This document shows positions 8,516 through 62,875 of a stretch of DNA of 64,000 nucleotides, one piece after another. The stretch is taken from contig NC_089433.1 of NCBI RefSeq assembly GCF_026210795.1, positions 1,823,001 through 1,887,000 on the forward strand. The letters run 5' to 3'. Within the stretch, counting starts at the first letter, position 1. Every line of letters starts with the position of its first letter. The stretch comes from Rhizophagus irregularis. Lineage: Eukaryota; Glomeromycota; Glomeromycetes; Glomerales; Glomeraceae. Under the pieces are notes generated by a model. The model saw only the letters and a list, made by a program, of their open reading frames with translations. It was not told the origin of the DNA and ran no database searches. A program made the position numbers and the translations under genes.

Positions 8516-8559
8516 AATACGTAAGATTTTTATTTTGTACAACGTACTGTATTATATAT

Positions 8560-12560: not shown

Positions 12561-12679
12561 ATAGATTTTTATCAACTATACTATACAACATCGGAGGATT
12601 CGGAGGTATATTTCATACTCAATATCGTTTAACCAGAAATGGATGCTATCGGGTATTCAGTATATCGGTATATTTGATT

Positions 12680-15054: not shown

Positions 15055-15079
15055 TATGATATTTATAATATATATCACT

Positions 15080-37413: not shown

Positions 37414-37414
37414 C

Positions 37415-37428
37415 ACTGGTCAAAAACC
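37415..37428 (-). other. LINE-B target 14-mer, outermost left copy
   Basis: ACTGGTCAAAAACC on the plus strand, within a 16-mer CACTGGTCAAAAACCA that is identical at 38687-38702 and 46864-46879. Confidence 0.8.
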
Positions 37429-38687
37429 AGGGTAAACATAGCATGAGCTTGAATTTTATTAATTAATGCCGAAGTAACTTTAGAGAAACACAGAGTGATC
37501 TAAAAAGTACCGCAACAAGTGCAGAACTAATAGAAAAACAAAGAACAAATAATCTTCCGAAATTACAAATAAGAAAAGCTAAGATTAAAAACCCCACCCT
37601 CTCTATATAAATAACTACGGCTACTCCCCCCAAATATATCTCAAAATGAGTAAAGTCGACTATGCTATACGTAACCCATCCAGCACCGTACCCACTCCTA
37701 GAATCGGTAAAGAACCTCCGAGCTACCATTAGCACTATCAAAAACGCCTAAAATTCAATTTCCCCTATTTGACTACATACTATGGATAACAAACCTATTT
37801 CACAAAGACCTCCGGGAACTTTTTAGTGTCGTGCAGTCCAGCCGATGGGGAACTTTTTAGTGTCGTGCAATCCCCAAAGGGACACCCACCTCATTTTGAA
37901 CGATCCCAAACGGAGGACACCCACCTCATTGCGAACAATCCATCGACCTAAGATCTACCTAGATAAGTCAATCCAATGATAGTCCATCATGTGACCACCT
38001 TGATCGGCATACTACAAAAACTGCGGTACCCAACCTGTCACCCCCCTTATCACCCCAATGATGATCGATTTTGAAAATTGTAACACCAAGCCACCATGAC
38101 GATCAAATTTTCCAGTATCCCCCCACCCCCCAAAGAAAATAAGGTTACACCGAAAAAAGCGACCAAGAAAAACAAAAAGCAAAAAATAAAGACATAAACC
38201 TCAGGAAAACTCGAAGTGCAATGAGAAAAACCTGAGTAAAATTCACCAAACATACACCTCAACTCCGTCTCCTTATTTTAGAAGACTAACTCCCCAGTTA
38301 ACAACATCAACTAGCAAGAAATACGTTGGTCAGGAGCTCCTTCCAAGAAATACCGGTCCGGCCTGCGAACCATTTGGCCAGTTAGACTTTAAAGGCGTAG
38401 GAACCAAGACGCACTACTTTTCAACCTTTCAGAAAGCCCAGGGGAACGTTCGTATGGAACTGCCATCTTACAGTATTATTGGTAACTCCAAGACTCATGA
38501 TAACGGTCCTAACTCAATATAAGCCGTAAGGAGTTCGGGCGAAACTAAAGACCTCAGTAATAGCTTCATATAACGTCGAAAAGTCCTTTTACTATCACTC
38601 AAGGCAAAAAATCATCATATTTTTCATCCATAACTTCATGGGAAAAAATGGGCAGAGCCCAACGGGGGAGAAAGTACGATCATCATC
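37429..38687 (-). mobile_element. Non-coding element C, LINE-B-related
   Basis: A 1.26-kb element on the minus strand between two identical target 14-mers. Its 5' end (GATGATGATCGTACTTTCTC) resembles the 5' end of LINE A2 (GAGGATCATCGCAACTCTTT), and its 3' end (GCTATGTTTACCCTGG) resembles that of LINE-B (ATGCCACGTTTGCCTGG). No ORF is meaningful. Inside are two direct duplications: GGGAACTTTTTAGTGTCGTG at about 37814 and 37848, and a GACACCCACCTCATT segment at about 37881 and 37915. It is best read as a non-autonomous LINE derivative. Confidence 0.6.
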
Positions 38688-38701
38688 ACTGGTCAAAAAC
38701 C
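38688..38701 (-). other. LINE-B target 14-mer between element C and B1
   Basis: ACTGGTCAAAAACC; target duplication of both neighbours. Confidence 0.85.
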
Positions 38702-38959
38702 AGGCAAATGTGGCATAGTAGCCTTTATCTTTATTAAATTTATTCGAACTTTACAATTTACAAAAAATAAAAAAGAAAATATAAAAATAAAACTAACTAA
38801 AAACAAAGCTATATAGTCTCCTAAGAAAAAATAAAGTAAAAAATTAATCTAAAAAGAAGAAAAATCGCATTACACTAAATTTCCCCAGATCTTCCCCCTT
38901 GATATATTCCAACCAAAGTAGAAGCAACTATGCTAACAAAATAACGAATAGCGCGCCCA

Positions 38960-41900
38960 CTATAGAAATCGACACTCCATCCTGCAAAAGCTGTTATTAA
39001 GTAGCACCGTTAGACGACCCATAAAACCCGAAAAGTGATTAAACCAAGGCAAACCATATTTCATCGAGTTCTTCAACCAATCGGTTCCGGAGTCACGTGA
39101 ATTGTGTAGGGTCGGAGGTGGTAAAGATGAGTAAGGTATGTACGTTGACAATGGCAAATTAGAAGGCTTCGGAGTAGTTTTCAACTTATAAGTAATATTC
39201 ATCGCGTTTTCCCATCTACTTTTCTCATAAGAACGCGGATTCCAAATTCGTTTTCTGAATTTTTGGACAAAATTATTATGAATAGCAGCGATAACCTAAA
39301 TCGCAGAGATTCTTGGAATAGACAAATCGACTAGGATGTCAATAAAAAGTGTAGGTAAACAACCACGGACAAGGGCGTATGAGGACCAATTTGTAGAAGA
39401 AAAGGACCAGCATGAAAGAGAAGTGAGTTTAGCAATAAAGGGAGTAGGATCAATATCAGCCAATTTTCCAGCTTCTTGAATTTTAGAAATCAAATGATTT
39501 TGATAAGATTGGAGAATTTGTTGCATAGGTAGACGACGTTTTTTGCACATAAAAAGGTGCATCAGGTCTTCCATGCGATCAATACAAGAACGGCAAGTTA
39601 ATTCGTCCATGTATAAGTCTGGTCGAGTCCGCTTAAGCTTTTCCAACGTGGGTAAGTCGTCCAAGAAAAGTTTGAATTTAAAGGTTAAGTGTCTTGAAGC
39701 ATGCTCAAGAGTAAAAGATGCATCATGAGAAGGCTTGAAATTCAAGGTAAACCAAGTTAGTTCCCAGTCGACAATATATTCTATATTAGATAATAATAAA
39801 GAAATAAAGTGAAATCGCGTTAAATTTAACAAATCACGCATTAACTGCGTTTGATAATACTGTTTAAGAAGGTGTCGTGAATTAGTTTCACAAACGGCGT
39901 CATTGTCGTAAGTCAAAACGAAATCATGGGCAGAAGCAAGGTCCATTCCAGAAATCAAAATACTGGATGATGCGGTATGGGCAGTATTGGCCAGGGAGTC
40001 AGCAAAATCGTTCAAATAATTGCCAGAATGAGCTTTAACTTTAACAGGAAGAACTGTCAAATTCTTGGTAAGGATAGTTCATTCAATAATGGCCCAAAGC
40101 TCAAAATTTGTTGTTTTGTAGTAAAGACGGCTATTTGAGTAGACATAGGAAGAGCAACTTCGAAGGCCATCAATGGCAGTTTGCGAGTCAGTATAAATAG
40201 TAACTTCTGAGTCGCGAGGAGAAATGGTTAAAACTGCGTAAATAGCGGCAGCTTCAGCACGAGAAGAAGAAGGGTTATCTCGAATGATGCCATGTGCATA
40301 AGTAGCAATGGAATTAGGAAAACCAGCATCAGGTACGATTTGCATCCAAGACCAGCCCATAGAAACATTAGGAGTGCCTAGATTAATAAGAGACCCATCA
40401 GTAAAAAAGATATAACGTGAGTCTGAAGACACAACCAACGGCGAATTTGCAAAAACAGCAGCAGCTGAGGATTCAATAGTGATAAGAGGAGCGGAAACTT
40501 CAACAATATCGTCAGGAGGAGAGTCAAAATCAAAATCCAATCGACTGTAATAAAGACGGACACCATCTTCTATATCAGCCTAGGTAAAAGGAGAGGATAC
40601 TGCAGAAGTATTACGTCTAATGCGCTCATTGATGGTGGGCAGAATAAGCGAATGTTGTAGAGAAACCGTAGGCGTACAAAGGGTTAAATCAGCATTCCGT
40701 TTTTTGGAAGGAGGCAAAGGAGTATGAGCAGCACAACCAGGGCAAGGAGAGAGTCTAATGAGATCACCAGGCGAAGATTCACAATCAGGAGAGACCCAGT
40801 GAACAATAGAACAAGTACCACGACTTGCTTGAACTAAAAGTTGTTTGCCAAAGATGGGAGAACCGTAGTCGTCTAACGTGACAATCCAATTTTTCGTAGT
40901 GGTAGGAGAGGACAGGCAAGGAGTCAATTCATAAAATGAAGAGTCAATCGTAGGCGTAGTAATGAACTGGGTCAGCAAACGATTGTTGGTGTCAGGAATG
41001 GTAGTAGCTTGCTGGATATCTTTATACCAATAAGGGATACAGCCAGGACCACGTCGTCCAACCAAATTGTCATAGTAGGCTTTCCAAGAAATTAAATGAG
41101 TCCCTTGGGGAGTAACAAGCTGAGATAGATAAAACAAATGCCGTTTTCGCAAAATAGGGAAATAGGCTTTAAATGCTTTAAGTGTCATGCATTCAAATAA
41201 GGGAACGCGTCCATCCATCAAAGTCAGGTTCGGAAGCTTCGAAAGTTGAGTATGAAGCAAACGAAAAGGAGTAGAGGATAAGAGAGCAATAGTGCATGCG
41301 ATATAATCTTTCTTAAAAGAAAAAGAGAAGACCATATAGACCAATCCTTAATTAAAAGGGGAGAAATAGGAATTAAAAAATTATATTGAATCAAACTCAA
41401 TCTATAAATAAAAAGAGATTGAATAAAAGAAAAGGAAGAATTAGCCATTAAAAATAAATTAGTAATATGACATTGTCGTTGATGAGCAAATAAATTTATC
41501 AAGCCCAAGGCTTGAGATAAAAATAAAATGGGATTTGGTAAAGAGCGAGAAAAATTTGCTTTATGCTTTACAACAGATCGTATACTTCTCGTTATTAGGT
41601 GGCAGTCAGATTCAGACAAGTGAGTAACTTGCATCCGGTATTCAAGTTTCGGTATAAGGACAGCATTATGTAAATAAACAACTTGTTTGGATGAGAGCTT
41701 TGCAGGGCGGATGGTTGCAGCGAAGGAGCAACATTCACGTTTGAGTTGCTTTTTGACAAAATCCCGGGAGTTTTTAATGTTGAACCAGACACCTAAAAAA
41801 CGAAAAGAAGTTGTCATGGAAATTGGGGTAATAGTAATGGAAGGAACACTATTTAAAGAGGATAAATCCAAGTTAAAAGTAATAGGGAGTAAAGTGGAAT

Positions 41901-44586
41901 TCGAAGTCAAGGGCAACGAATTAGTAATTAACACATATTTGTTATGATTGGCAGAAGTGTTATTAATTTGATAGAATTCTTCTGTAATGGATAACATAAA
42001 TTCCATGCCAGTCTTCGACGAGGAAATAAGAGTAGAGTTATCCATAAATACTAAATTATTAATCTTCAAATCGGAAGAAGGATTGGGAGAAGCAATTAAG
42101 GATGGTGTAGAAAGAACATAAGGGTCCATCATTTCATGCTTCATGACAGTAAGTAAGGGATCAATATAAATAACCCATAAGAGAGGAGAAATAACTTCGC
42201 CTTGGTCAATACCAATGCGAACCCTATAAGCAGGCGTAGATCCATGAGCAGTGAAAACGCTATTAATGCGTTTTGTGAAAAGGGAAAGAATAAACTTAAT
42301 AGCAGAAGCTGGAAGACGTATTCGTTCTAAAGCGAAACGTAACATTGTCAAATCAACCGAGTCAAAAGCTTTAGAAATGTCTTGAGAGAGAATCCAAAGT
42401 GGGTTTTTGTTGACATCAGCATCATGGATAATAGATTCTAGAGTAATAATAGGGTCGCGGCAAGAACCACCAGGAAGACCAGCGAAGTTACCACCTTTAA
42501 GAACATCATGTGTAGCCATAATAGTAGAAAGGCGATTATAAAAGAGTTTGACAAGAGATTTTCTAATCACTTCAAGTAAAGTAATAGGACGAGTATTTTT
42601 CAATTGACATTTCCATTCGTGAGGTTTGGGAATGGGAAAAACCATTGCCTGTCGCCATAAGTCAGGAATATCAGCTTTGGAAAGGCAAGCTTGAATTAAA
42701 ATAAGGAGTAGAGCCGAGGAACGAGATCCAAGGTGTTTGAGCATTTCATAAGTGATCATGGAAGGACCTGAGGCTTTACCGTTAGGAGTAGAAGAAACGG
42801 TGGTTAACCATTCATCAAGGGTAGGGGGATTCATTAAAGAATCATAGATGGAGGAGGGCACATCATCCATAGGTTGGTAAACAGAAGACCATCTATCAGG
42901 TAATGTATCTACAGATACAGGAGGAGTGGATTTTATAGGTACAAAGTTTTGGAAATGGTTAACAACAGCATCGTCTATATCCTTGGGAGCAGTTAATAAC
43001 TGAGGGCGAGTGGGATGATCAACAAAGACACGATCCAAAGTGATACGGCGGCGGGTGCGAGAAAGCGCTGAATCAATGAAAGAGGAAAGGTCGGTTTCAA
43101 AATTATTGTTCCTATCGTCCAAATGAGCACGAATGGAGGAATCTTGGAATTCTTTTTCTTGAAGTAAATGAAATCCCCGTAAGGATTTTGAAATATTGGA
43201 TAAATCATCAAGAAGTGACTTGAAATCATCTTGTCGACATGATGAGAGAGAAGAGGGCAAAGCAGGAACGAAAGTAAATACATTCTTATATAATTGCAAA
43301 ATGTTTTGAAGTCTGATTAAATGAATAGACCACTTATGTTCATGAGCGGCAGAATAAGTTAAAGGATATTTGCGCAATAAACGTATTGAATGCATAAGGC
43401 GATTTAAAAACCGATAATGTTGGGTTAAAATTTCCAGATCTTTAGGAACCTTAGGAGTATAATTATTGCCAACGGTGAAAGAAGGTAGTGTAACGTTGGC
43501 AGCTTTAAGAATTCGTGATTGGAGATATTCGCACATTTGATTGATATGCCAGGAGGAAAAGGTTGAAGGTGAGACGTCACATAAAGCATCAGCTTTATCA
43601 GCAAAATCCGTCCATTGAATTTCAGTTACAGAATCAAATTTGAAGACGCGACGGGTTCGGCGCTTAAGTTGTCGAGCGCGAGCCAATTTGGTAGAGGCAA
43701 AAAGTAAAGACATATCATAGTATGTTATGACGGGGTTATGATCAGATGTGCAAACATCTTGAGCATTAAAAATGCAAGCAGTAAGAGCAAATCCTTTGAG
43801 AAGAGGGCAGGACCATACATAATCAACTCGAGTAATGTGGTCATTGCGATGAAAGGTACCTAAGGAGTCGGAAAGATTAATAGGAGTATAGTCTTCATAT
43901 CCGTGAGAGAGGAGATGAAAAAATAATCGGTGAATATGTTTTGAAGCAACTTGAGGTTGATTGAAGTAAATAGGGTAATATTTGTCTAAATGCATATTAA
44001 AATCGCCACAAACAGCATGGTAAAAGCCAGCATGTTTAGTAAGGGTAAGTTGTTGAATGAGCAAATCAATAGTATCAGTGCGCAGAACACTTTCAGCAGG
44101 GGGAGGGATATAAATAACAAATATACGCAATTTAATATTGCCTTTGAAATATAAATCAACAGAAAGTAACCGTGAAGAATGCGATTTAAAATCTTGAACA
44201 TGTGAAGCAAGGGAATTTTCTATAAAAAGAGAAACACCACCAGAAGAGAGAATTTGTTTAGAAGTATCCAAATTAGAAGAGAACACAGTATAATTAGAAA
44301 TACGTTTGGATAAAAACTTCATTTGTTTAGGGTGAAGATGAGTATCCACGATACCACCAAAGGAAATATGTTTTAAGGAAAAGAAAGTAGAAATTTCTTC
44401 TAATTTAGTCTGACCATACATTTTAAGGCCATTAACATTAAAGGAAGAAATATTAAATGAATTGGGGATAGGGGAAGTGTTACTGGAAGAGGAAAATAAC
44501 GATTCATGCGAAAAAATTCCAGTAACATTGTCAGGGTTGGGAGGGTTTCGTACAAAGGTATCATAATTAAAATTATTGTTCGACAT
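38960..44586 (-). pseudogene. LINE-B ORF2 (endonuclease-RT-RNase H) of B1
   Basis: This minus-strand frame starts at ATG 44586 (49 nt after ORF1 in B4 layout). It carries an APE endonuclease (FNVNGLKM, VCGDFNMH, TSDHNPV), a reverse transcriptase (GKASGPS, QDISKAFDSVD, GIDQGEVISPLLW, FMDNST where B2-B4 have FMDDST), RNase H (FTDGSLINLG, SSRAEAAAI, TDSQTA, KAHSGN) and a CRSC...HLFMC zinc motif. It is open for 1120 codons to about 41340, where loss of one T causes a frameshift. Further stops are TAG near 40580 (TGG elsewhere), TGA at 40079 (CGA elsewhere) and TAG near 39296 (AAG elsewhere, a transversion). The FMDD-to-FMDN change alone would disable the polymerase. Confidence 0.88.
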
Positions 44587-44636
44587 TAAAACACAATGAT
44601 ATAAACAGTCGGGGAGTTAAAATTTGAAGAAAGAAA

Positions 44637-46753
44637 TTAATTGGAAGAAGCTGAATCAGCTTGTTCCAGGGGAGCACCACCAAGGGAGCCAATGAATTGC
44701 TTGATATGACCAGTAAGTTGGTCCTATTTACTTTTAATAGCGACACGACTATTTTTGAGATCATTAATTTCTTCTTGTGTGGAGGAGATGGGAGTAAAAG
44801 GAGGAGCATTTGGAGAAAGGTGAGAAGAAGGAGGTGATGTGTCAGGAACAATAGTGAATGTAGGCGAAGGTCGCGTTAAAATACTTTTGGGAGGCAGCGA
44901 AGATTTAGCGGAAGACAGAATATTAAGAGGAACATGAGTTACAGGGGCATCTTCTTGCATGAGGTCCGGTTCAGGTTCATTGGGTATAGGGAGTGGATCA
45001 AGGCCAAGGTGTGATTCAATACGAGTCATCCGTTGGTCAGCAAGTTCAAGAGCGGAGATGCGTTTGTGAAAGTTAGCAACTTCACATTGTAATTCTCGTA
45101 AAAGGTTTAGAATGTTGTTAGCATCATCAGGAGATAATGCAAAGTTAGGAGTTTGTCGGGGTAAGGGACGTGCTGTAGAACGAGAGGAGGAAGAAAAGGA
45201 GACAGATCGTTCTTTACTATTATGGCGGGCACGTTGAGAAGTATTGGGAGGGGGTTTGTTATGATTACTATTATCATTATTAGTGCGGTCATGGGAAGCG
45301 TTATTGGCTCGTCCAGAATTGGAAGCAGATCGATCTTTAGATTTGGAGCGAGATCGAGAGCGAGAACGTGCATTGGCAATATTAGAATTGGAGCGAGGTT
45401 GATTAACATTGAATCGTTCTTTGAGTTTTGCAACAGGGTCGCAAGTGCGGCTTCTACCTCTGGTTTGTTTGAGTGGGCAAAAATTAGGAGCACAACCTAG
45501 TTTGCCACATCTGTGACAAAGTTTATTAGTATTATCGGGGAGGACCAGAAAAGCACTTTGCCTTGGAAGCTAACAGTCTGTTCCATAGCAGCATCCATGG
45601 TTTCTTGGGAGTTGAAGGTGACATAGGCCCATCTTTTGGGTTTGTAGGAATTTAAAGAAAGAGGAACATTGACAGCTTTTGCACCAAAATCGCGTGTAAG
45701 AGGAGCCAAGTTGATATCCTTAACATTGGGAGGAAGTTGAGTGAGGGTGGCAACGTATTGACGGCGCGCAGCCTTTTGATCCACAGTATAGAAACATGGA
45801 GTAATTCGGAGACAGGTGGAGAAACAGTAAACAGCCCATTGGTCGGTAAAACGAGCAATTGAATCGGCGTGATCATACACAATACGGGCTTGCTGGACTT
45901 TAGCATTAGGCCTGGAGAAGAGGCGACAAGAGGTAATATTACCAAATTTTTTGAAATAGGCCATGAGGTTGTCCTTTTTGATAAAGAAAGGGATATCGGT
46001 AACTTGGATAGCCTGGAGATCTTCATTGGATCGGAGTTGGCGAGGGTCATGGGCATGAAAGATTAAGTCAGGGAACTCAGGATGGGTGGAACCAACGCAC
46101 AAATCGCGTGCTTCAGCGGTATGGAAGTGGATAACGAGGCGTTTAGCCTCACCAGAACCTGTCATACAAGCTTTTCCAGTGAATGACTCGTACGTTTCTA
46201 AGAAAAGGTTATTCACAGCCTCAATAAGGGCTTTATTGGTAGGGAATTTCTTGAGTGATTCAGGGGCAGCATTCGGCGCAGCCGCAGCCTGAAAATCATC
46301 TCTGGTTATGGCAAAGGTCACCACTGGATCTGGGGTTTGATCGCCATCAGGAGCACCATTAGTATTCAAATTGGGCGACGCGTTAGGGGGTTGTTGCAAG
46401 TCTTTGTTTGAAGGTGCATGCATGGACGCGTCCACATTTCCAGAAGACGCGACGTGACTGGGCGCAGTTGGCACAGCAGATCTTTTCGGGGAGGAGGCCA
46501 AAGTATTTTCGCCAGAGATATTTTGTTGAGGAGAAGAGGAAGGTCCATCTACTCCAACGTCAGCCGTCTGGTCATCGGCAACGTAGTCTTCTTCCATAGA
46601 ATTTTCGGTAATCGTACGATTACGTTTCTGCTGGATAGTGTTTTCGCCATCGGAGCTTCGAATTATCGGAGTTGTTATTATTTTTCCGTTCTTGACGGGA
46701 AGCTTTCCTACTGTTAGGGTTATGGCTTCCGCGCCTTCTCGCTATTAGGACAT
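44637..46753 (-). pseudogene. LINE-B ORF1 (RRM, zinc knuckle, RS-rich) of B1
   Basis: A minus-strand equivalent of B4 ORF1. The normal ATG (46751-46753) is followed two codons later by a stop. A one-base insertion near 46655 and a frame break near 45495, just after the RRM region, split the rest. The piece 45497-46597 carries the acidic N-terminus and RRM-like domain (IQVTDIPFFIKKDNL), and later pieces carry the C-terminal coiled-coil-like segment (MTRIESHLGLD). The cysteine knuckle region follows at 45480-45530. It is not functional as a single protein. Confidence 0.8.
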
Positions 46754-46864
46754 AGTAGAGGGCTTCGAGTTAATATATAAAATATAAAATTTTATTAGTA
46801 GCTTGTATTATTTTTTAATAATAAAAAATTAATTTCGTCAGAAAATTTCGTTTTTGAAAAATTC

Positions 46865-46878
46865 ACTGGTCAAAAACC
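46865..46878 (-). other. LINE-B target 14-mer in the left TIR of the MITE
   Basis: ACTGGTCAAAAACC, the innermost left copy: both MITE terminus and target duplication of B1. Confidence 0.88.
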
Positions 46879-47107
46879 AATATATTGGGTAGCAGATATG
46901 TATCAGATATGTACCCGATATGTGTAGTATTAATGCAGAAAATCGGGTACCCGATATGTGTAAGATATATGTAAATATATATATCATATATATATCGGGT
47001 ACCGATATATATATGATATGTAAATAATATGTAGACGATATATATATTTACACATATCTTACATATATCGGGTACCCGATTTTCTGCATTAATACTACAC
47101 ATATTGG

Positions 47108-47863
47108 TAGGGATGGTAAAGTCCTAAGTCCTGGACCTAAAGACCTGGTCCTAGGACCTGGTCTGCAGATCTTTAGGTCCAAATTTTGGACCAGAAGCGG
47201 ACCAGGTCCTAAAAAGTCCTAGCCAATAAGGTTATAAGAGATCTATATGTTTAAATTATATATGTATAATTTGCTGTAAATTTGATTTTAAGTAATTATA
47301 AATTATAAAAAAGTGCACTGCAATATTGCAATACAATTTTTATATTATTAAAATCATATAAAAAATGAGTTGCGATATTGCGATTCACATTTTTATATTA
47401 ATATCAATATAAAAAAGTGAATCGCGATACCGCAACTCACTTTTTTTATATAAAATCAATATAAAAAAGTGAATCGCGATACCGCAACTCACTTTTTTTT
47501 ATATAAAATCAATATAAAAAAGTGAATCCCGATACCGCAACTCACTGTTTTTATATAAAATCAATATAAAAAAGTGAATCCCGATACCGCAACTCACTTT
47601 TTTTATATAAAATCAATATAAAAAAGTGAATCCCGATACTGCAACTCACTTTTTTTATATAAAATCAATATAAAAAAGTGAATCCCGATATCGCAACTCA
47701 CTTTTTTTGTATTTAATTATTACTAAAATTCATAAAATCTATAAATAACTTAGTCAGGACCAGGTCCAGGACTGGTCCTAACAGGACTGGTCCGCAGGTC
47801 CGTTCAATAGGACTTATAGGTCCTAGGACCAGGACCGGATCAGGACCGACCTAACCATCCCTA
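47108..47863. mobile_element. hAT-like non-autonomous element, 756 bp
   Basis: TIRs begin TAGGGATGGT and end ACCATCCCTA, with a flanking 8-bp duplication CATATTGG (47100-47107) and CATATCGG (47864-47871), one mismatch. An 8-bp duplication and TAGGG/CAGGG-type ends are characteristic of hAT elements. The subterminal regions are rich in GGACCTGGTCC and TCCTAGGACC palindromes, a typical hAT transposase-binding layout. No ORF is present. Confidence 0.85.
47340..47705. repeat. 52-bp tandem repeat inside the hAT-like element
   Basis: AGTGAATCSCGATACCGCAA recurs at 47416, 47468, 47521, 47573, 47625 and 47677, 52-53 bp apart, with A/T-rich AAAATCAATATAAAAA spacers. The core is an imperfect palindrome (AGTGAATCGCG facing GCAACTCACT). 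Diverged units precede it from about 47310. Confidence 0.9.
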
Positions 47864-47907
47864 CATATCGGGTACATATCTGATACATATCTGCTACCCG
47901 ATATATT

Positions 47908-47921
47908 GGTTTTTGACTAGT
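47908..47921 (+). other. LINE-B target 14-mer in the right TIR of the MITE
   Basis: GGTTTTTGACTAGT, the inverse of the left target with one transition. The same variant occurs at 50992 and 54655. Confidence 0.88.
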
Positions 47922-50732: not shown

Positions 50733-50991
50733 TGGACGCGCTATTCGTTATTTTGTTAGCATAGTTGCTTCTACTTTGGTTGGAATATATCAAGGGGGAA
50801 GATCTGGGGAAATTTAGTGTAATGCGATTTTTCTTTTTTTTAGATTAATTTTTTTACTTTATTTTTTCTTAGGAGACTATATAGCTTTGTTTTTAGTTAG
50901 TTTTATTTTTATATTTTCTTTTTATTTTTTTGTAAATTGTAAAGTTCGAATAAATTTAATAAAGATAAAGGCTACTATGCCACGTTTGCCT
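47922..50991 (+). mobile_element. LINE-B copy B2, 5'-truncated
   Basis: Starts within ORF2 (CCCGGGATTTTGTCAAG) directly after the right MITE target and ends with the family 3' UTR at GTTTGCCT, followed by the next target copy (50992-51005). 5' truncation with matching target copies on both sides is the normal result of aborted target-primed reverse transcription. Confidence 0.92.
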
Positions 50992-51005
50992 GGTTTTTGA
51001 CTAGT
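50992..51005 (+). other. LINE-B target 14-mer between B2 and B3
   Basis: GGTTTTTGACTAGT, identical to the right TIR copy. Confidence 0.88.
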
Positions 51006-54000
51006 TGACAATGTTACGTTTCGCTTTAGAACGAATACGTCTTCCAGCTTCTGCTATTAAGTTTATTCTTTCCCTTTTCACAAAACGCATTAATAGCGTT
51101 TTCACTGCTCATGGATCCACGCCTGCTTATAGGGTTCGCATTGGTATTGACCAAGGCGAAGTTATTTCTCCTCTCTTATGGGTTATTTATATTGATCCCT
51201 TACTTACTGTCTTGAAGCATGAAATGATGGACCCTTATGTTTTTTCTACACCATCCTTAATTGATTCTCCCAATCCTTCTTCCGATTTGAAGATTAATAA
51301 TTTAGTATTTATGGATGACTCTACTCTTATTTCCTCGTCGAAGACTGGCATGGAATTTATGTCATCCATTACAGAAGAATTCTATCAAATTAATAACACT
51401 TCTGCCAATCATAACAAATATGTGTTAATTACTAATTCGTTGCCTTTGACTTCGAATTCCACTTTATCTCCTATTACTTTTAATTTAGATTTATCCTCAT
51501 TAAATAGTGTTCCTTCCATTACCATTACCCCAATTTCTATGACAACTTCTTTTCGTTTTTTAGGTGTTTGGTTTAACATTAAAAGCTCCCGGGAATTTGT
51601 CAAGAAACAACTCAAACGTGAATGCTGCTCCTTCGCTGCAACCATTCGCCCTGCAAAGCTCTCATCCAAACAAGTTGTTTATTTACATAATGCTGTCCTT
51701 ATACCGAAACTTGAATACCGGATGCAAGTTACTCACTTGTCTGAATCTGACTGCCACCTAATAACGAGAAGTATACGATCTGTTGTAAAGCATAAAGCAA
51801 ATTTTTCTCGCTCTTTACCAAATCCCATTTTATTTTTATCTCAAGCCTTGGGCTTGATAAATTTATTTGCTCATCAACGACAATGTCATATTACTAATTT
51901 ATTTTTAATGGCTAATTCTTCCTTTTCTTTTATTCAATCTCTTTTTATTTATAGATTGAGTTTGATTCAATATAATTTTTTAATTCCTATTTCTCCCCTT
52001 TTAATTAAGGATTGGTCTATATGGTCTTCTCTTTTTTCTTTTAAGAAAGATTATATCGCATGCACTATTGCTCTCTTATCCTCTACTCCTTTTCGTTTGC
52101 TTCATACTCAACTTTCGAAGCTTCCGAACCTGACTTTGATGGATGGACGCGTTCCCTTATTTGAATGCATGACACCTAAAGCGTTTAAAGCCTATTTCCC
52201 TATTTTGCGAAAACGGCATTTGTTTTATCTATCTCAGCTTGTTACTCCCCAAGGGACTCATTTAATTTCTTGGAAAGTTTACTATGACAATTTGGTTGGA
52301 CGACGTGGCCCTGGCTGTATCCCTTATTGGTATAAAGATATCCAGCAAGCTACTACCATTCCTGACACCAACAATCGTTTGCTGACCAAGTTCATTACTA
52401 CGCCTATGATTGACTCTTCATTCTATGAATTGACTCCTTGCCTGTCCTCTCCTACCACTACGAAAAATTGGATTGTCACGTTAGACGACTACGGTTCTCC
52501 CATCTTTGGCAAACAACTTTTAGTTCAAGCAAGTCGTGGTACTTGTTCTATTGTTCACTGGGTCTCTCCTGATTGTGAATCTTCGCCTGGTGATCTCATT
52601 AGACTCTCTCCTTGCCCTGGTTGTGCTGCTCATACTCCTTTGCCTCCTTCCAAAAAACGGAATGCTGATTTAACCCTTTGTACGCCTACGGTTTCTCTAC
52701 AACATTCGCTTATTCTGCCTACCATCAATGAGCGCATTAGACGTAATACTTCTGCAGTATCCTCTCCTTTTACCTGGGCTGATATAGAAGATGGTGTCCG
52801 TCTTTATTACAGTCGATTGGATTTTGATTTTGACTCTCCTCCTGACGATATTGTTGAAGTTTCCGCTCCTTTTATCACTATTGAATCCTCAGCTGCTGCT
52901 GTTTTTGCAAATTCGCCGTTGGTTGTGTCTTCAGACTCACGTTATATCTTTTTTACTGATGGGTCTCTTATTAATCTAGGCACTCCTAATGTTTCTATGG
53001 GCTGGTCTTGGATGCAAATCGTACCTGATGCTGGTTTTCCTAATTCCATTGCTACTTATGCACATGGCATCATTCGAGATAATCCTTCTTCTTCTCGTGC
53101 TGAAGTTGCCGCTATTTACGCAGTTTTAACCATTTCTCCTCGCGACTCAGAAGTTACTATTTATACTGACTCGCAAACTGCCATTGATGGCCTTCGAAGT
53201 TGCTCTTCCTATGTTTACTCAAATAGCCGTCTTTACTACAAAACAACAAATTTTGAGCTTTGGGCCATCATTGAACGAACTATCCTTACCAAGAATTTGA
53301 CAGTTCTTCCTGTTAAAGTTAAAGCTCATTCTGGCAATTATTTGAACGATTTTGCTGACTCCCTGGCCAATACTGCCCATACCGCATCATCCAGTATTTT
53401 GATTTCTGGAATGGACCTTGCTTCTGCCCATGATTTCGTCTTGACTTACGACAATGACGCCGTTTGTGAAACTAATCCACGACACCTTCTTAAACAGTAT
53501 TATCAAACGCAGTTAATGCGTGATTTGTTAAATTTAACGCGATTTCACTTTATTTCTTTATTATTATCTAATATAGAATATATTGTCGACTGGGAACTAA
53601 CTTGGTTTACCTTGAATTTCAAGCCTTCTCATGATGCATCTTTTACTCTTGAGCATGCTTCAAGACACTTAACCTTTAAATTCAAACTTTTCTTGGACGA
53701 CTTACCCACGTTGGAAAAGCTTAAGCGGACTCGACCAGACTTATACATGGACGAATTAACTTGCCGTTCTTGTATCGATCGCATGGAAGACCTGATGCAC
53801 CTTTTTATGTGCAAAAAACGTCGTCTACCTATGCAACAAATTCTCCAATCTTATCAAAATCATTTGATTTCTAAAATTCAAGAAGCTGGAAAATTGGCTA
53901 ATATTGATCCTACTCCCTTTATTGCTAAACTCACTTCTCTTTCATGCTGGTCCTTTTCTTCTACAAATTGGTCCTCTTACGCCCTTGTCTGTGGTTGTTT

Positions 54001-54397
54001 ACCTACACTTTTTATTGACATCTTAGTCGATTTGTCTATTCCAAGAATCTCTGCGATTAAGGTTATCGCTGCTATTCATAATAATTTTGTCCAAAAATTC
54101 AGAAAACGAATTTGGAATCCGCGTTCTTATGAGAAAAGTAGATGGGAAAACGCGATGAATATTACTTATAAGTTGAAAACTACTCCGAAGCCTTCTAATT
54201 TGCCATTGTCAACGTACATACCTTACTCATCTTTACCTCCTCCGACCCTACATGATTCACGTGACTCCGGAACCGATTGGTTGAAGAACTCGATGAAATA
54301 TGGTTTGCCTTGGTTTAATCACTTTTCGGGTTTTATGGGTCGTCTAACGGTGCTACTTAATAACAGCTTTTGCAGGATGGAGTGTCGATTTCTATAG
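51006..54397 (+). CDS. LINE-B ORF2 of B3 from mid-RT to end (uninterrupted)
   Basis: An open frame of about 1130 codons from the truncation to the natural TAG. It carries the RT motifs after the SKAFDSVD motif (GIDQGEVISPLLW, FMDDSTLISS), RNase H (FTDGS, SSRAEVAAI, TDSQTA, KAHSGN) and the zinc motif CRSC...HLFMC. The active-site FMDD is intact but the upstream catalytic aspartate region and the endonuclease are missing, so no autonomous activity is expected. No stop or indel has accumulated. Confidence 0.82.
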
Positions 54398-54654
54398 TGG
54401 GCGCGCTATTCGTTATTTTGTTAGCATAGTTGCTTCTACTTTGGTTGGAATATATCAAGGGGGAAGATCTGGGGAAATTTAGTGTAATGCGATTTTTCTT
54501 TTTTTAGATTAATTTTTTACTTTATTTTTTCTTAGGAGACTATATAGCTTTGTTTTTAGTTAGTTTTATTTTTATATTTTCTTTTTATTTTTTTGTAAAT
54601 TGTAAAGTTCGAATAAATTTAATAAAGATAAAGGCTACTATGCCACGTTTGCCT
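51006..54654 (+). mobile_element. LINE-B copy B3, 5'-truncated
   Basis: Starts in the RT domain at TGACAATGTTACGTTTCGC after the target, and ends with the family 3' UTR before the next target copy at 54655. Very similar to B2 and B1 over the shared part. Confidence 0.92.
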
Positions 54655-54668
54655 GGTTTTTGACTAGT
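54655..54668 (+). other. LINE-B target 14-mer between B3 and B4
   Basis: GGTTTTTGACTAGT, identical to the two copies to its left. Confidence 0.88.
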
Positions 54669-54785
54669 GAATTTTTCAAAAACGAAATTTTCGACAAAAA
54701 TAATTTTTTTATTATTTTTAAAAAATAATACAAGCTACTAATAAAATTTTATATTTTATATATTCCCAACTCAAAGCCCTCTACT

Positions 54786-56910
54786 ATGTCTGGTAACTAT
54801 GCCAAGAGAGGCTGTGGAAGTCATAACCCTAACAGTAGGAAAGCTTCCCGTCAAGAACGAAAAAATAATAATAACTCCGATAATTCAAGCTCCGATGGTG
54901 AAAACACTATTCAGCTGAAACGTAATCGTACGATTACCGAAAATTCTATGGAAGAAGACTACGTTGCCGATGCCCAGACGGCTGACGTTGGAGTAGATGG
55001 ACCTTCCTCTTCTCCTCAACAAAATATCTCTGGCGAAAATACTTTGACCTCCTCCCCGAACAAATCTGCTGCGCCAACTGCGCTCAGTCACGTCGCGTCT
55101 TCTGGAAATGTGGACGCGTCCATGCATGCACCTTCGAACAAAGACTTACAACAACCCTCTAACGCATCGCCTAATTTGGATACCAATGGTGCTCCAGATG
55201 GCGATCATACTCCAGATCCAGTGGTGACTCTCGCCATAACCAGAGATGATTTTCAGGCTGCGGCTGCGCCGAATGCTGCCCCTGAATTTCTCAAGAAGTT
55301 CCCTACCAATAAAGCCCTTATTGAGGCTGTGAATAACCTTTTTTTAGAAACATACGAGTCATTCACTGGAAAAGCTCGTATGACTGGTTCTGGTGAGGCT
55401 AAACGCCTCGTTATCCACTTCCATACCGCTGAAGCACGCGACTTGTGCGTTGGTTCCACTCATCCCGAGTTCCCTGACTTGATCTTCCACGCTCATGACC
55501 CTCGCCAACTCTGATCCAATGAAGATCTCCGGGCTATCCAAGTTACCGATATCCCTTTTTTTTATCAAAAAGGATAACCTCATGGCCTATTTCAAAAAAT
55601 TTGGTAACATTACCTCTTGCCGCCTCTTCTCCAGGCCTAATGCCAAAGTCCAGCAAGCCCGTATTGTTTATGATCACGCCGATTCAATTGCTCGTTTTAC
55701 CGATCAATTGGCTGTATACTGTTTCTCCACCTGTCTTAGAATTACTCCATGTTTCTATACTGTGGATCAAAAGGCTGTGCGCCGTCAATACGTTGCCACC
55801 CTCACTCAACTTCCTCCCAATGTTAAGGATATCAACTTGGCTCCTCTCACACGTGACCTTGGCGCAAAGGCTGTCAATGTCCCGCTCTCTTTAAATTCCT
55901 ACAAACCCAAAAGATGGGCCTATGTCACCTTCAACTCCCAAGAGACCATGGATGCTGCTATGGAACAGACTGTTAGCTTCCAAGGCAAAGTGCTTTTCTG
56001 GTCCTCCCCCGATAATACTAATAAACTTTGTCACAGGTGTGGCAAATTAGGTTGTGCTCCCAATTTTTGCCCGCTCAAACAAACTAGAGGTAGAAGTCGC
56101 ATTCGCGACCCTGTCGCAAAACTCAAAGAACGATTTAACGTTAATCAGCCTCGTCGTTCCAATTCTAATACTGTCAATGCCCGTTCTCGCTCTCGATCTC
56201 GTTCCAAATCCAAAGATCGATCTGCTTCTAATTCTGGACGTGCCAATAACATTTCCCACGACCGCACTAATAATGATAATAATCATAACAAACCCCCTCC
56301 TAATACCTCCCAACGTGCCCGTCATAATAGCAAAGAACGATCGGTCTCCTTTTCTTCCTCCTCTCGTTCTACAGCACGTCCCTTACCCCGACAAACTCCT
56401 AACTCTGCACTATCTCCTGATGATGCTAATAACATTTTAAACCTTTTGCGAGAATTACAATGTGAAGTTGCTAACTTTCACAAACGCATCTCCGCTTTTG
56501 AACTTGCTGACCAACGGATGACTCGTATTGAATCATACCTTGGCCTCGATCCACTCCCTCTGCTTAATGAACCTGAACCGGACCTCATGCAAGAAGATGC
56601 CCCTATATCTCACGTTCCGCTTAATATCCAATCTTCCGCTAAATCTCCATTGGCTCCTAAAAGCATTTTAGCGCGACCCTCGCCTACCTTCACTATTATT
56701 TCCGACACTTCTCTTCCTTCTTCTCATCTTTCTCCAAATGCTCCTCCTTTTACCTCTATCTCCTCCACGCAAGAAGAAATTAATGATCTCAAAAATAGTA
56801 GAGTTGCCATTGAAAGCAAATTAGACCAACTTACTGGTCATATCAAACAATTCATTGGCTCCCTTGGTGGTGCTCCCCCAGAACAAGCTGATTCAGCTTC
56901 TTCTGTTTAA
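54786..56910 (+). pseudogene. LINE-B ORF1 of B4 (RRM, CCCC knuckle, RS region), one stop and one frameshift
   Basis: Ignoring one extra T in a run of eight near 55557-55563 (seven in B5), this is 708 codons. ORF1 protein coats the element RNA. In order: a Lys/Arg/Asn-rich N-terminus, a long acidic Ser/Pro-rich segment, an RRM-like domain (DIPFFIKKDNLMAYF near residue 255), the knuckle CHRCGKLGCAPNFC (CX2CX4CX4C, near 56030), an SR-type segment (RSRSRSRSKSKDRS), and a heptad-like C-terminal part (LLRELQCEVANF, MTRIESYLG). The first break is TGA at 55512, where B1 and B5 read CGA. Confidence 0.85.
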
Positions 56911-56959
56911 TTTTCTTCTTAAACTTTTACTCCCCGACTGTTTTTATCATTGTGTTTTA

Positions 56960-59900
56960 ATGTCGGACAACAATTTTAAATATGATACCTTTGCACGAAA
57001 CCCTCCCAACCCTGATAATGTTACTGAAATTTCTTTACATGAATCGTTATTTTCTTCCTCCAGTAACACTTCCCCTATCCCCAATTCATTCAATATTTCT
57101 TCTTTTAATGTTAATGGCCTTAAAATGTATGGTCAGACTAAATTAGAAGAAATTTCTTCTTTCTTTTTGTTAAAACATATTTCCTTTGGTGGTATTGTTG
57201 ATACCCATCTTCACCCTAAACAAATGAAGTTCTTATCCAAACGTCTTTCTAATTATACTGTGTTCTCTTCCGATTTGGATAATTCTAAACAAATTCTTTC
57301 TTCTGGTGGTGTTTCTCTTTTTATAGAAAATTCTCTGGCCTCACATGTTCAGGATTTTAAATCCCATTCTTCACGATTACTCTCTGTTGATTTATATTTC
57401 AAAGGCAATGTTAAATTGCGTATATTTGTTATTTATATTCCTCCCCCTGCTGAAAGTGTTTTGCGCACTGATACTATTGATTTGCTTATTCAACAACTTA
57501 TCCTTACTAAACAAGCTGGTTTCTACCATGCTGTTTGTGGCGATTTTAATATGCATTTAGATAAATATTACTCTGTTTATTTTAATCAGCCCCAAATTGC
57601 TTCAAAACACATTCACTGATTATTCTTTCATCTCCTTTCTCATGGATATGAAGACTATACTCCTGTTAATCTTTCCGATTCTTTAGGCACCTTCCATCGC
57701 AATGATCAAATTACTCGCGTTGATTATATATGGTCCTGTCCTCTTTTTAAAAGATTTGCCCTTACTGCTTGCATTTTTGATGCTCAAGACATCTGCACAT
57801 CTGACCATAACCCTGTCATCACATACTATGATATGTCTTTACTTTTTGCCTCTACTAAATTGGCTCGCGCTCGTCAACTCAAGCGCCAAACCCGTCGCGT
57901 CTTCAAATTTGATACTGTAATTGATATTCAATGGACAGAATTCGCTGACAAAGCTGATGCTTTATGTAATGTCTTACCTGCAACCTTTTCCTCCTGGCAT
58001 ATCAATCAAATGTGCGAATATCTTTAATCACGCATCCTTAAAGCCGCCAACGTTACTTTACCTTCTTCTACTGTTGGCAACAATTATACTCCTAAGGTTC
58101 CTAAAGATCTGGAAATCTTAACTCAACATTATCGGTTTTTAAATCGCCTAATGCATTCGATACGTTTATTGCGCAAATATCCTTCATCTTATTCTGTTGC
58201 TCATGAACATAAGTGGTCTATTCATTTAATTAGACTTCAAAACATTTTGCAATTATATAAGAAAGTATTTACTTTCGTTCCTACTTTGCCCTCTTCTCTT
58301 TCATCATGTCGACAAGATAATTTCAAGTCACTTCTTGATGATTTATCCAATATTTCAAAATCCTTACGGGGATTTCATTTGCTTCAAGAGAAAGATTTTC
58401 AAGATTCTTCCATCCGTGCTCACTTGGACGATAGAAATAATAATTTTGAAACGGACCTTTCTTCTTTCATTGAGTCAGCGCTTTCTCGTACCTGCCGCCG
58501 TATCACTTTGGATCGTGTCTTTATTGATCATCCCACTCACCCTCAGTTGTTAACTGATCCTAAGGACATTGATGATGCTGTTGTTAACCATTTCCAAAAC
58601 TTTGTACCTATAAAGTCTACTCCTCCTGTATCTGTAGATACATTACCTGATAGATGGTCTTCTGCCTACCAACCCATGGATGATGTGTCTTCCTCCATCT
58701 ATGATTCTTTAATGAATCCCCCTACCCTTGACGAATGGTTATCCACTATTTCTTCCACTCCTAACGGTAAAGCCTCTGGTCCTTCCATGATTACCTATGA
58801 AATGCTCAAACATCTTGGATCCCGTACCTCGGCTCTGCTCCTCATTTTAATTCAAGCATGCCTTTCCAAAGCTGATATTCCTGATTTATGGCGCCAAGCA
58901 ATGGTTTTTCCCATTCCCAAACCTCACGAATGGAAATGTCAATTGAAAAATACTCGTCCTATTACTTTACTTGAAGTGATTAGAAAATCTCTTGTCAAAC
59001 TTTTTTATAATCGCCTTTCTACTATTATGGCTTTACATGATGTTCTTAAAGGTGGTAACTTCGCTGGTCTTCCTGGTGGTTCTTGCCGAGACCCTATTAT
59101 TACTTTAGAATCTATTATCCATGATGCTGATATCAACAAAAACCCACTTTGGATTCTTTCCCAAGACATCTCTAAAGCTTTTGACTCGGTCGATTTGACG
59201 ATGTTACGTTTTGCTCTAGAACGAATACGCCTTCCAGCTTCTGCTGTTAAGTTTATTCTTTCCCTCTTCACAAAACGCATTAATAGCGTTTTTACTGCTC
59301 ATGGATCCACGCCTGCTTATAGGGTTCGCATTGGTATTGACCAAGGCGAAGTTATTTCTCCTCTTTTATGGGTTATTTATATTGATCCTCTACTAACTGT
59401 TTTGAAGAATGAAATGATGGATCCTTATGTTCTCTCTACACCATCCCTAATTGATTCCCCTAATCCTTCTTCTGATTTGAAGATTAATAATTTAGTTTTT
59501 ATGGATGACTCTACTCTTATTTCCTCGTCAAAAGCTGGCATGGAATTTATGTTATCCATTATAGAAGAATTTTATCAGATTAATAACACTTCTGCTAATC
59601 ATAGCAAATATGTGTTAATTACCAATTCGTTGCCTTTGACTTCGAATTCCACTTTATCTCCTATTACTTTTAAATTGGATTTATCCTCTTTAAATAGTAT
59701 TCCCTCCATTACTATTACCCCAATTTCTATGACAACTTCTTTTCGTTTTTTAGGTGTATGGTTTAACATTAAAAGCTCCCGGGATTTTGTCAAAAAACAA
59801 CTCAAATGCGAATGTTGCTTGTTCGCTGCGACCATCCGCCCTGCAAAGCTCTCTCCCAAACAAGTTGTGTACTTACACAATGCTGTCCTTATACCGAAAC

Positions 59901-62587
59901 TTGAATACCGGATGCAAGTCACCCACTTGTCTGAATCTGACTGCCACCTAATTACGCGAAGTATAAGATCTGTTGTAAAACACAAAGCAAATTTTTCTCG
60001 TTCTTTACCCAATCCTATTTTATTTTTATCTCAAGCCTTAGGCTTGATTAATTTGTTTGCTCATCAACGACAATGTCATATTACTAATTTATTTTTAATG
60101 GCTAATTCTTCTTCTTTTTTTATTCAATCTCTTTTTATTTATAGATTGAGTTTGATACAATATAATTTTTTAATTCCTATTTCTCCTCTTTTAATTAAGG
60201 ACTGGTCTATATGGTCTTCTCTTTTTTCTTTTAAGAAAGATTATATCGCTTGCACTATTGCTCTCTTATCTTCTACTCCTTTTCGTTTGCTTCATACTCA
60301 ACTTTCGAAGCTTTCGAACCTAACTTTGTTGAATGAACGCGTTCCTTTATTTGAATGCATGACACCTAAAGCTTTTAAAGCTTATTTCCCTATTTTGCGA
60401 AAACGTCAATTGTTTTATCTATCTCAGCTTGTCACTCCCCAAGGAACTCATTTAATTTCCTGGAAAGCCTATTATGATAATTTGGTTGGACACCGTGGCC
60501 CTGGCCGTATCCCCTACTGGTATAAAGACATCCAGCAAGCTACCACTATTCCTGACACCAATAATCGTTTGCTGGCTCAGTTTATTGCTTCGCCCGCAAT
60601 TGACTCTTCATTTTATGAATTGGCTCCTTGTATATCCTCTCCTTCCACTACAAAAAATTGGATTGTCACGTTAGATGACTACGGCTCTCCCCTCTTTGGC
60701 AAACAACTTTTGATCCAAGCAAGCCGTGGTACTTGTTCTATTGTCCATTGGATTTCTCCTGATTGTGAATCTTCACCTGGTGATCTCATTAGACTTTCTC
60801 CTTACCCTGGTTGCGCTGCTCATACTCCTTTGCCTCCTTCCAAAAAACGGAATGCTGATTTAACCCTTTGCACGCCTACGGTTTCTCTACAACATTCGCT
60901 TATTTTGCCCACCACCAATGAGCGAATTAGACGTAACACTTCTGAAGTGACTTCTTCTTTTACTTGGGCTGATATAGAAGATGGTGTCCGTCTTTATTAT
61001 AGTCGATTGGATTTTGATTTTGACTCTCCTTCTGAAGATATTGTTGAAGCTTTTACTCCTCCTATCACTATTGAATCCTCAGCTGCTGCTGTTTTTGCAA
61101 ATTCCCCGTTAGTTGTGTCCTCGGACTCACGTTATATCTTTTTCACTGATGGGTCCCTTATTAATCTAGGCACTCCTGATGTTTCTATGGGCTGGTCCTG
61201 GATGCAAATTGTTCCAGATGCTGGTTTTCCCAACTCCATTGCCACTTATGCTCATGGCCTTATTCGAGATAATCCTTCTTCTTCTCGAGCTGAAGCTGCC
61301 GCTATCTACGCAGTTTTAACCATTTCCCCTCGTGACTCAGAAGTTACTATTTATACTGACTCGCAAACTGCCATTGATGGCCTTCGAAGTTGCTCTTCCT
61401 CTGTCTACTTGAACAGTTGTTTGTACTATAAAACTTCTAATTTCGAGCTTTGGGCTATTATTGAACGAACCATCCTTTCCAAGAATTTGACAGTTTTTCC
61501 TATCAAAGTTAAAGCTCACTCTGGCAACTATTTAAATGATTTCGCTGATTTCTTGGCCAACACTGCTCATACCGCACCATCCAGTATTTTGATTTCTGGA
61601 ATGGACCTAGCCTCTGCCCATGATTTTGTTTTAACTTATGACAATGATATAGTTTGTGAATCTAATCCCCGACACCTCCTCAAACAATATTATCAAACGC
61701 AGTTAATGCGCGATGTGTTAAATTTAACGCGATTCCATTTTATTTCTCTATTAACATCTAATATAGATTATATTGTCGATTGGGAACTTACTTGGTTTAC
61801 TTTGAATTTCAAGCCTTCTCATGATGCATCCTTTACTTTAGAGCATGCTTCAAGACACCTAACCTTTAAATTTAAACTTTTCTTGGATGATTTACCCACA
61901 TTGGAAAAGCTTAAGCGGACTCGGCCAGACTTATACATGGACGAATTAACTTGCCGTTCTTGTATCGACCGCATGGAAGACCTAATGCACCTTTTTATGT
62001 GTAAAAGACGTCGTTTACCTATGCAACAAATTCTCCAATCTTATCAAAACCATTTGATTTCTAAAATTCAAGAAGCTGGAAAATTGGCTGATATTGATCC
62101 TACTCCATTTATAGCTAAACTCACTTCTCTTTCATGCTGGTCCTTTTCTTCTACAAATTGGTCCTCTTACGCCCTAGTCCGTGGTTGTTTACCTAAACTT
62201 TTTATTGACTTATTTGTCGATTTATCTATTCCAAGAATCTCTGCGATTAAGGTTATCGCTGCTATTCATAACAATTTTGTTCAAAAATTCAGAAAACGAA
62301 TTTGGAATCCGCGTTCTTATGAGAAAAGTAGATGGGAAAACGCGATGAATATTACCTATAAATTGAAAACTACTCCGAAGCCGTCTAATTTGCCATTGTC
62401 GATGTACATACCTTACTCATCTTTACCACCTCTGACCCTACACGATTCATGTGACTCCGGAACCGATTGGTTAAAAAACTCGATGAAATTTGGTTTGCCT
62501 TGGTTTAATCACTTTTCGGGTTTTATGGGTCGTCTAACGGTGCTACTTAATAACAGCTTTTGCAGGATGGAGTGTCGATTTTTATAG
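56960..62587 (+). pseudogene. LINE-B ORF2 of B4 (endonuclease-RT-RNase H), two stops
   Basis: A single frame of 1876 codons with TGA at 57617 (CGA in B1) and TAA at 58025 (CAA in B1); otherwise open, including 58151-62587. Domains: APE endonuclease, residues about 45-300 (FNVNGLKM near 50, GDFNMH near 191, TSDHNPV near 283); reverse transcriptase about 590-900 (GKASGPS 602, SKAFDSVD about 735, GIDQGE about 790, FMDDST about 846); RNase H about 1390-1530 (TDGS, RAEAAAI, TDSQTA, KAHSGN); a zinc motif near 1664. All visible RT and RNase H catalytic residues are intact. This is the best copy for defining the family. Both stops lie in the endonuclease half. Confidence 0.9.
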
Positions 62588-62844
62588 TGGGCGCGCTGTT
62601 CGTTATTTTGTTAGCATAGTTGCTTCTACTTTGATTGGAATATATCAAGGGGGAAGATCTGGGGAAATTTAGTGTAATGCGATTTTTCTTTTTTAGATTA
62701 ATTTTTTTACTTTATTTTTTCTTAGGAGACTATATAGCTTTGTTTTTAGTTAGTTTTATTTTTATATTTTTCTTTTTATTTTTTGTAAATTGTAATGTTC
62801 GAATAAATTTAATAAAGATAAAGGCTACTATGCCATGTTTGCCT

Positions 62845-62875
62845 GGTTTTTAACTAGCAGTGGTTTTTGATTAGT
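62845..62875 (+). other. Double LINE-B target between B4 and B5
   Basis: GGTTTTTAACTAGC (62845-62858), then AGT, then GGTTTTTGATTAGT (62862-62875). Two diverged target copies sit 3 bp apart with no LINE between them, unlike the other junctions. Confidence 0.8.

Follow-up and report, generated by a model that had tools for sequence, protein, structure and literature searches.

The locus examined here raises a simple question: why do two arrays of long interspersed nuclear elements (LINEs) run outwards, in opposite directions, from one small DNA transposon? It lies in a 64,000-nt stretch of the Rhizophagus irregularis genome (positions 1,823,001 to 1,887,000 of NC_089433.1), hereafter the window, whose coordinates are used throughout unless a contig prefix (C5:, C11:, etc.) is given. 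BLAST searches with LINE-B and with a MITE taken from elsewhere gave the order C(−), B1(−), MITE, B2(+), B3(+), B4(+), B5(+), where the MITE is a miniature inverted-repeat transposable element of the CACTA type, B1 to B5 are copies of an 8.2-kb LINE that we call LINE-B, and C is a short noncoding element. This is the layout given in a preliminary description of the same DNA: C and B1 lie on the minus strand to the left of the MITE, B2 to B5 lie on the plus strand to its right, and all 3′ ends point away from it. We conclude that LINE-B is very probably a non-long-terminal-repeat (non-LTR) retrotransposon with a sequence-specific target, namely, the 15 bp at the very edge of the MITE, TRGTTTTTGACYAGT, set back by one base from the end of the transposon. 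Because the MITE has this tip at both of its ends, a single element can bear two divergent head-to-tail arrays.

LINE-B ends and the tips of the host MITE

The first 300 bases of B4 served as the query for LINE-B 5′ ends across the genome, and the best 40 of 97 candidates were picked by LINE sequence alone. The 5′ end abutted a MITE end in 25 copies, the 3′ end of another LINE-B in 12, the 3′ end of element C in 2, and neither in 1; a recognisable tip preceded 38 of the 40. For the 3′ ends, a 162-base query that did not reach the 14-mer ACTRGTCAAAAACC yielded 42 rows from the best 40 of 269 candidates, 35 of which ran into the exact tip and 40 into a tip with no more than two changes. Where unrelated DNA lay beyond the LINE-B 3′ end (22 cases), the next base was the G of the CACTA end in 21. 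Among these best-scoring candidates, LINE-B copies elsewhere in the genome do not sit in unrelated flanks, which would have refuted the preliminary description: 39 of 40 5′ ends lie at a MITE or an earlier insert, and 40 of 42 3′ ends lie at the tip.

The letters of the tip vary between MITEs (GG or AG; GACC, GACT, GGCC, AACC and so on), and the variants flanking one and the same copy tend to match. Both tips were available for 29 of the 40 LINE-B copies, and they agreed in 25, compared with a mean of 6.7 and a maximum of 16 in 200,000 shuffles. In this comparison, the tip nearest the upstream body was used where two 5′ tips were present, and some 3′ tips were drawn from a listing of LINE tails described below. 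The proposal that each insertion rebuilds its target as a duplication was borne out in this respect, with a correction to its length: an off-target copy on C11, with the same other letters on both sides, shows that the duplication is TRGTTTTTGACYAGT, of 15 and not 14 bp, and that the LINE itself ends in ...GCC.

It might be argued that the 14-mer is merely the 3′ tail of the LINE, which could then insert anywhere, and that the MITE shares this tail by chance or by descent. Such a tail would be expected at the LINE 3′ end, where it is indeed present in 40 of 42 cases. We nevertheless regard this account as vanishingly improbable. The tip also stands 5′ of LINE-B copies (38 of 40), where it closes off a MITE body or another insert; its variants agree on the two sides; 15 empty MITEs contain it; the off-target copy has other letters at either end; and LINEs with the same tail run into other target letters. 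The concern, voiced at the outset, that the 14-mer might be an ordinary part of the LINE 3′ end can thus be set aside.

The LINE start is AACTCTCTCCT, and in 32 of the 38 copies whose tip was recognisable, extra letters consisting of AGT repeats or tip pieces were seen by eye to separate it from the tip. Where there is just one AGT, this may represent the LINE's own first letters, and the longer stretches would reflect slippage or re-copying of the target.

The host element fits a nonautonomous CACTA (EnSpm/CMC) MITE of about 293 bp. Inspected by eye, the first eight solitary copies all had CACTR..YAGTG ends and a 3-bp target site duplication (TSD; TGA, TAA, TAT, AAG, TTG, TAT, GAA and TCA), and it is this combination of ends and duplications that places the element in the CACTA superfamily. 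A search for further MITEs gave 74 rows from the best 40 of 133 candidates, which were grouped on reading into 38 MITE bodies; for two of these (C17:102512 and C7:3719623), the right side was taken from the survey of LINE-B 5′ ends. A LINE or element C is borne by 20 of these, by 9 of them at both tips, and all 29 LINE or element C copies abutting the 38 MITEs have their 3′ ends outwards, in keeping with the idea that the element enters the terminal inverted repeat in a fixed orientation. Among the 18 LINE-free MITEs, 15 are empty with a matching 3-bp TSD; their tips are exact in 28 of 30 cases and carry one change in the other 2. The outer CACTA TSD also survives around occupied elements: it was identical in 21 of the 22 arrays in which both ends were read (shuffled mean, 2.0; maximum, 9), and three more arrays agree by eye (C17:593308-601815, C8:1811588-1812338, and the C12 array between tails 1182071 and 1198443). 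Judged by these duplications, the arrays lie inside single MITEs.

Since the MITE is a long AT-rich near-palindrome, LINE-B could conceivably have no sequence target and favour AT-rich palindromes or fragile DNA, with the MITE acting as a structural hot spot. Insertion is, however, base-exact and oriented, and it occurs also at the outer tips of earlier inserts, away from the palindrome (14 of 40), which makes a purely structural preference very improbable.

The MITEs themselves are not free of other inserts. One of the 15 empty copies (C29:986502-986794) sits within a LINE-B body, with the TSD TTT, and so represents nesting in the reverse direction; two further empty MITEs bear inserts of their own (C17:21372 and C1:3882760). 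The 4.5-kb element between the MITE ends at C1:3882760 was considered as an autonomous CACTA transposon, but its two long frames look hAT transposase-like by eye, and it was taken as a MITE with an insert. An autonomous partner with this tip, or a CACTA transposase, was not found, although no genome-wide search for the transposase was made. Three LINE-B matches of 18 to 30 bases (C7:3719623, left; C15:2789397, left; C1:1478531, right) are not at the tip and were treated as chance matches.

Several observations weigh against a strict tip-specific insertion of LINE-B. Each search drew on at most the 40 best candidates, so that older and more decayed copies are under-sampled. Two of the 42 3′ ends are off the tip, one with four changes (C12:1867646) and one in which the tip is cut short and inner LINE sequence comes next (C6:2521707), and the MITE end adjoining a LINE at C1:3434395 has no recognisable tip. 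The tips differ in 4 of the 29 copies compared, including B4 and B5 of the window. The off-target copy mentioned above (C11:3561646-3569857) is full length and has TAGATCACTTTTAAC on both sides. At the places where two more full-length copies of 8.2 kb would have their 3′ ends (L192 and L193), no LINE-B sequence was present, and both copies were left out of the tip comparison. One array has a differing outer TSD (CTT/CCT at C6:2598545), and in 3 of the 18 LINE-free MITEs the TSD is not clear. The window locus also has an inverted duplicate, described below, that differs from it on the right side, and the two do not form a simple before-and-after pair. Finally, the endonuclease match (Exo_endo_phos_2) is below the Pfam cut-off, at 18.7 versus 27.4 in B4 and at 20.2 and 27.2 in the relatives P0002 and P0028.

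The mechanism that we propose builds on features that can be read directly from the sequence, namely, the target, the 15-bp duplication, the orientation, the arrays at both ends, the empty targets and the CACTA TSD that is still present on the outer sides of the arrays. An endonuclease, probably of the apurinic type, would set the target, and most likely it first nicks the strand that reads ACTGGTCAAAAACCA followed by ATAT, at the boundary between the two; the MITE-tip junction that it is proposed to prefer is that of CAAAAACCA with ATAT. The freed 3′ end would prime reverse transcription of the LINE RNA, starting at ...GCC, and the second strand would be cut 15 bp off, so that only the last base of the MITE lies beyond the cut. 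Insertion by this route would double the 15 bp, point the LINE 3′ end out of the MITE and leave an outer tip for the next insertion.

The array in the window

With up to two mismatches, the 14-mer matches the window nine times, compared with 0.59 expected from shuffles. Seven of these matches belong to the array (37415, 38688 and 46865 on the plus strand; 47908, 50992 and 54655 on the minus strand; and a copy with two changes at 62862), the elements of which are listed in Table 1. The preliminary description placed the tip at every LINE-B junction. This applies to the window junctions listed, apart from the B4/B5 junction, where both tips are changed; the same junction recurs in the duplicate of this locus, at C5:1983178.

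Table 1. Elements, tips and duplications of the array, in window coordinates
Feature	Position	Strand	Remarks
Outermost left tip	37415..37429	-	Before it: letter C, then the MITE's own TSD CTG (37411-37413)
Element C, 1.26-kb noncoding rider at the outer tip of B1	37430..38687	-	
Tip/15-bp duplication at B1 3′ end	38688..38702	-	
LINE B1, near full length	38703..46864	-	5′ end on left MITE tip
CACTA-type MITE bearing both arrays	46865..47921		~293 bp minus insert; left tip ACTGGTCAAAAACC (at 46865), right tip GGTTTTTGACTAGT (end at 47921)
8-bp duplication around hAT-like insert	47100-47107 and 47864-47871		CATATYGG
hAT-like insert in MITE	47108..47863		Ends TAGGGATGG..CCATCCCTA; holds 52-bp repeats; sequence inspected directly
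LINE B2, 5′-truncated	47922..50990	+	Starts at ~LINE position 5106 (BLAST)
Tip/duplication, B2-B3 boundary	50991..51005	+	
LINE B3, 5′-truncated	51006..54653	+	Starts at ~LINE position 4527 (BLAST)
Tip/duplication, B3-B4 boundary	54654..54668	+	
LINE B4, near full length, degenerate	54669..62843	+	Without first ~11 nt
Two changed tips in tandem, B4/B5 junction	62844..62875	+	TGGTTTTTAACTAGC, AGTGGTTTTTGATTAGT
LINE B5, 5′ end full length	62876..64000	+	Leaves window; next tip C5:1894079 (C5:1887001-1894034 left out)

Beyond the window, the array seems to continue as one unbroken chain to C5:1943668, as judged from its TSD, its flanks and seven pieces read along the way. Its ends, C5:1860415 and C5:1943668, are 83 kb apart and have CTG at both, and LINE-B was present in all seven pieces between the window end and C5:1943668 (L054, L131, L155, L132, L088, L133 and L123), with a gap of ~190 bases without a LINE-B match in L132. 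A ~135-bp minisatellite borders the array on both sides (window positions 37100-37414 and the far-end piece L123). When the outer flanks are joined, they align across the join to the neighbouring minisatellite unit (79% over 163 columns), and on this alignment the joined flanks rebuild a unit of the minisatellite.

The inverted duplicate (C5:1991300-1996300) lies ~130 kb off and matches the left flank of the window locus at 97.6-98.8%. It enters the MITE directly at the base where the window holds 9.45 kb of C and B1, and by this comparison it is a paralogous empty left tip. Its right MITE tip is unlike that of the window. The hAT-like insert is matched in the duplicate as well and therefore predates the duplication of the locus.

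Duplication on this scale brings up another origin for the arrays, in which insertion accounts for a small number of LINE-MITE units, and later unequal crossing-over or segmental duplication, not separate insertions, made most of the arrays larger. The tandem units of ~8.2 kb would suit such a history, as would the inverted duplicate itself and the four discordant tips, two of which are in the window. We consider it unlikely, on three grounds. B2 and B3 begin at different points of the LINE and were thus separately truncated; arrays at separate chromosomal sites each have their own CACTA TSD; and the tip pair matches in 25 of 29 copies. Repeated insertion of LINE-B at the tips remains the reading that we prefer for the arrays.

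The other two matches to the 14-mer (8338 and 15378) are the ends of a separate CACTA-like element at 8337-15392. This 7-kb relative has the ends CACTGGTCAAAATCA, the TSD CTA on both sides and LINE frames flanking it, and no frame longer than 91 amino acids was found within it. Its tip is unlike the LINE-B target, and it bears no LINE-B.

LINE-B proteins, sister LINEs and element C

LINE-B encodes an RNA recognition motif (RRM) in its first open reading frame (ORF1) and a reverse transcriptase (RT) and RNase H in ORF2. In B4, the parts of ORF1 span 54729-56910 (RRM), an endonuclease part broken by stops spans 56825-58024, and RT and RNase H span 58028-62587; both RVT_1 and RNase_H were matched in this copy with Pfam. 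The closest proteins are from R. irregularis, with up to 97% identity across the RT part. One of them, a protein of 1873 amino acids that is 97% identical over this part, has RVT_1, RNase_H and a weak endonuclease match under the Pfam cut-off, and for other relatives, such as P0032, P0107 and P0116, the database lists PF14529 or PF03372. The LINE-B endonuclease is probably of the apurinic (APE) type. Compared with solved structures, the RT part matches the LINE-1 ORF2p and R2 proteins, and the hallmarks of a non-LTR element are present in the form of the RT, 5′ truncation (B2 and B3) and the 15-bp duplication of the target site.

The genome contains 141 occurrences of the 24-base stretch with which LINE-B terminates on its 3′ side. 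Among the 100 occurrences listed, the exact tip comes next in 54 and TYGAYAAGGAYTGAT, which is part of a 52-bp tandem repeat (minisatellite), in 18. Twenty-two of the other 28 were read, and they comprised 5 changed tips, 5 changed minisatellite forms, 6 cases of CRAAAGTGTGACTT or a near form, and 6 others. Whole-genome junction counts with a slightly shorter tail were 78 for the exact tip and 28 for the exact minisatellite. The LINE found in the 52-bp minisatellite (L154) is ~60-85% identical to LINE-B, the RT core and the 3′ end being most alike. Minisatellite junctions lie ~8.2 kb apart at C23:3202426-3218848, which suggests that this sister LINE also occurs in tandem arrays. A third target, CRAAAGTGTGACTTATGACC (L158, L159, L162 and L137), is part of a dispersed repeat and adjoins both LINE tails and element C; the 3′ tails hint that a further sister LINE may use it. 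Both of these targets are dispersed repeats, with 125 (minisatellite) and 403 (third target) candidates at first look. An endonuclease swap between LINE-B and L154 was considered and rejected: in 300-base steps, the endonuclease part was 67-75% identical, compared with 60-85% for the rest, with no excess divergence.

Element C had been described as a further LINE, "LINE-C". It proved to be not a truncated LINE but a short, noncoding element of 1.26 kb that has its own, distinct 5′ end, is repeated in the genome and has its targets in common with the LINEs; no frame of 150 amino acids was present in the window copy. These features fit a SINE or a nonautonomous LINE. Of 10 copies fetched whole, 9 have their start in the first 5 nt and extend to the 3′ end, and 1 is truncated. 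Querying the genome with the 3′ end of element C returned 41 rows from the best 40 of 109 candidates. The 28 rows read fell into 11 at CACTA tips, 10 in the minisatellite, 2 at the third target, 1 at TTATACGACGTATA and 4 elsewhere, shares that are not genome estimates because of how the rows were chosen: 8 were known beforehand to lie at tips, and the other 20 (not beside a listed 14-mer, or beyond the list) split 3, 10, 2, 1 and 4 in the same order. The copy at C29:1118190-1118347 (L138) has TTATACGACGTATA on both sides, and this sequence is a possible fourth target. The common targets and the similar 3′ tail suggest that element C may be moved by LINE proteins.

On balance, we favour a scheme in which LINE-B and its sister LINEs in R. 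irregularis have one 3′ tail, serving as an RNA handle, and each has moved to a different dispersed repeat (the CACTA tips, the 52-bp minisatellite and the third repeat), with one similar-tailed short noncoding rider that all of these LINEs carry and that occurs at each of the three targets.

Known target-specific LINEs and the meaning of the arrays

Tx1L of Xenopus laevis is a LINE with an apurinic-type endonuclease whose specific target is a DNA transposon, Tx1D. LINE-B, too, uses a DNA transposon as a specific target (39 of 40 5′ ends and 40 of 42 3′ ends among the best candidates). It differs from Tx1L in that its host is a CACTA-type MITE, its site is the tip of the transposon, both ends are used and long arrays are formed. 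To our knowledge, the Tx1 group has no RNase H, whereas ORF2 of LINE-B does; the parallel is one of features.

According to a study of target-specific LINEs, members of the R1 and Tx1 clades rely on an APE-type endonuclease; the study also mentions a Utopia element inserted in tandem in U2 genes (PMC4640811). Specific insertion into a repeated sequence is common to those elements and LINE-B. The targets named in the abstract of that study are rRNA genes and microsatellites (PMC4640811), whereas that of LINE-B is a transposon end, and we place LINE-B in neither clade. For R. irregularis itself, a survey of transposable elements reports Plavaka, within CACTA/CMC/EnSpm, as prevalent; the LINE groups that it names include L1-Tx1, L1-R1 and I (PMC11075540). 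The CACTR ends and 3-bp TSDs of our host MITE agree with the presence of this superfamily. The passages of the survey that were consulted make no mention of LINE insertion into CACTA ends, and the words "nested" and "target" do not occur in its text (PMC11075540). Titles and abstract openings in the open-licence literature likewise described neither a LINE that inserts at CACTA tips nor any target-specific LINE from Rhizophagus.

LINE-B offers a clean, countable case in which one mobile element lands on the end of another and rebuilds its own landing site. Because each insertion rebuilds the site, the number of targets is not lowered by insertions, and at least 22 LINE clusters in R. irregularis can be explained as chains grown from elements of ~293 bp. 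If the sister-LINE scheme is true, target choice and RNA recognition would have evolved apart, and the rider would spread its risk over several hosts. The set of same-tailed LINEs with different targets and one common rider most deserves further attention. Given these relatives at other targets and their common rider, a change of target by a LINE can be tested directly through a comparison of endonucleases.

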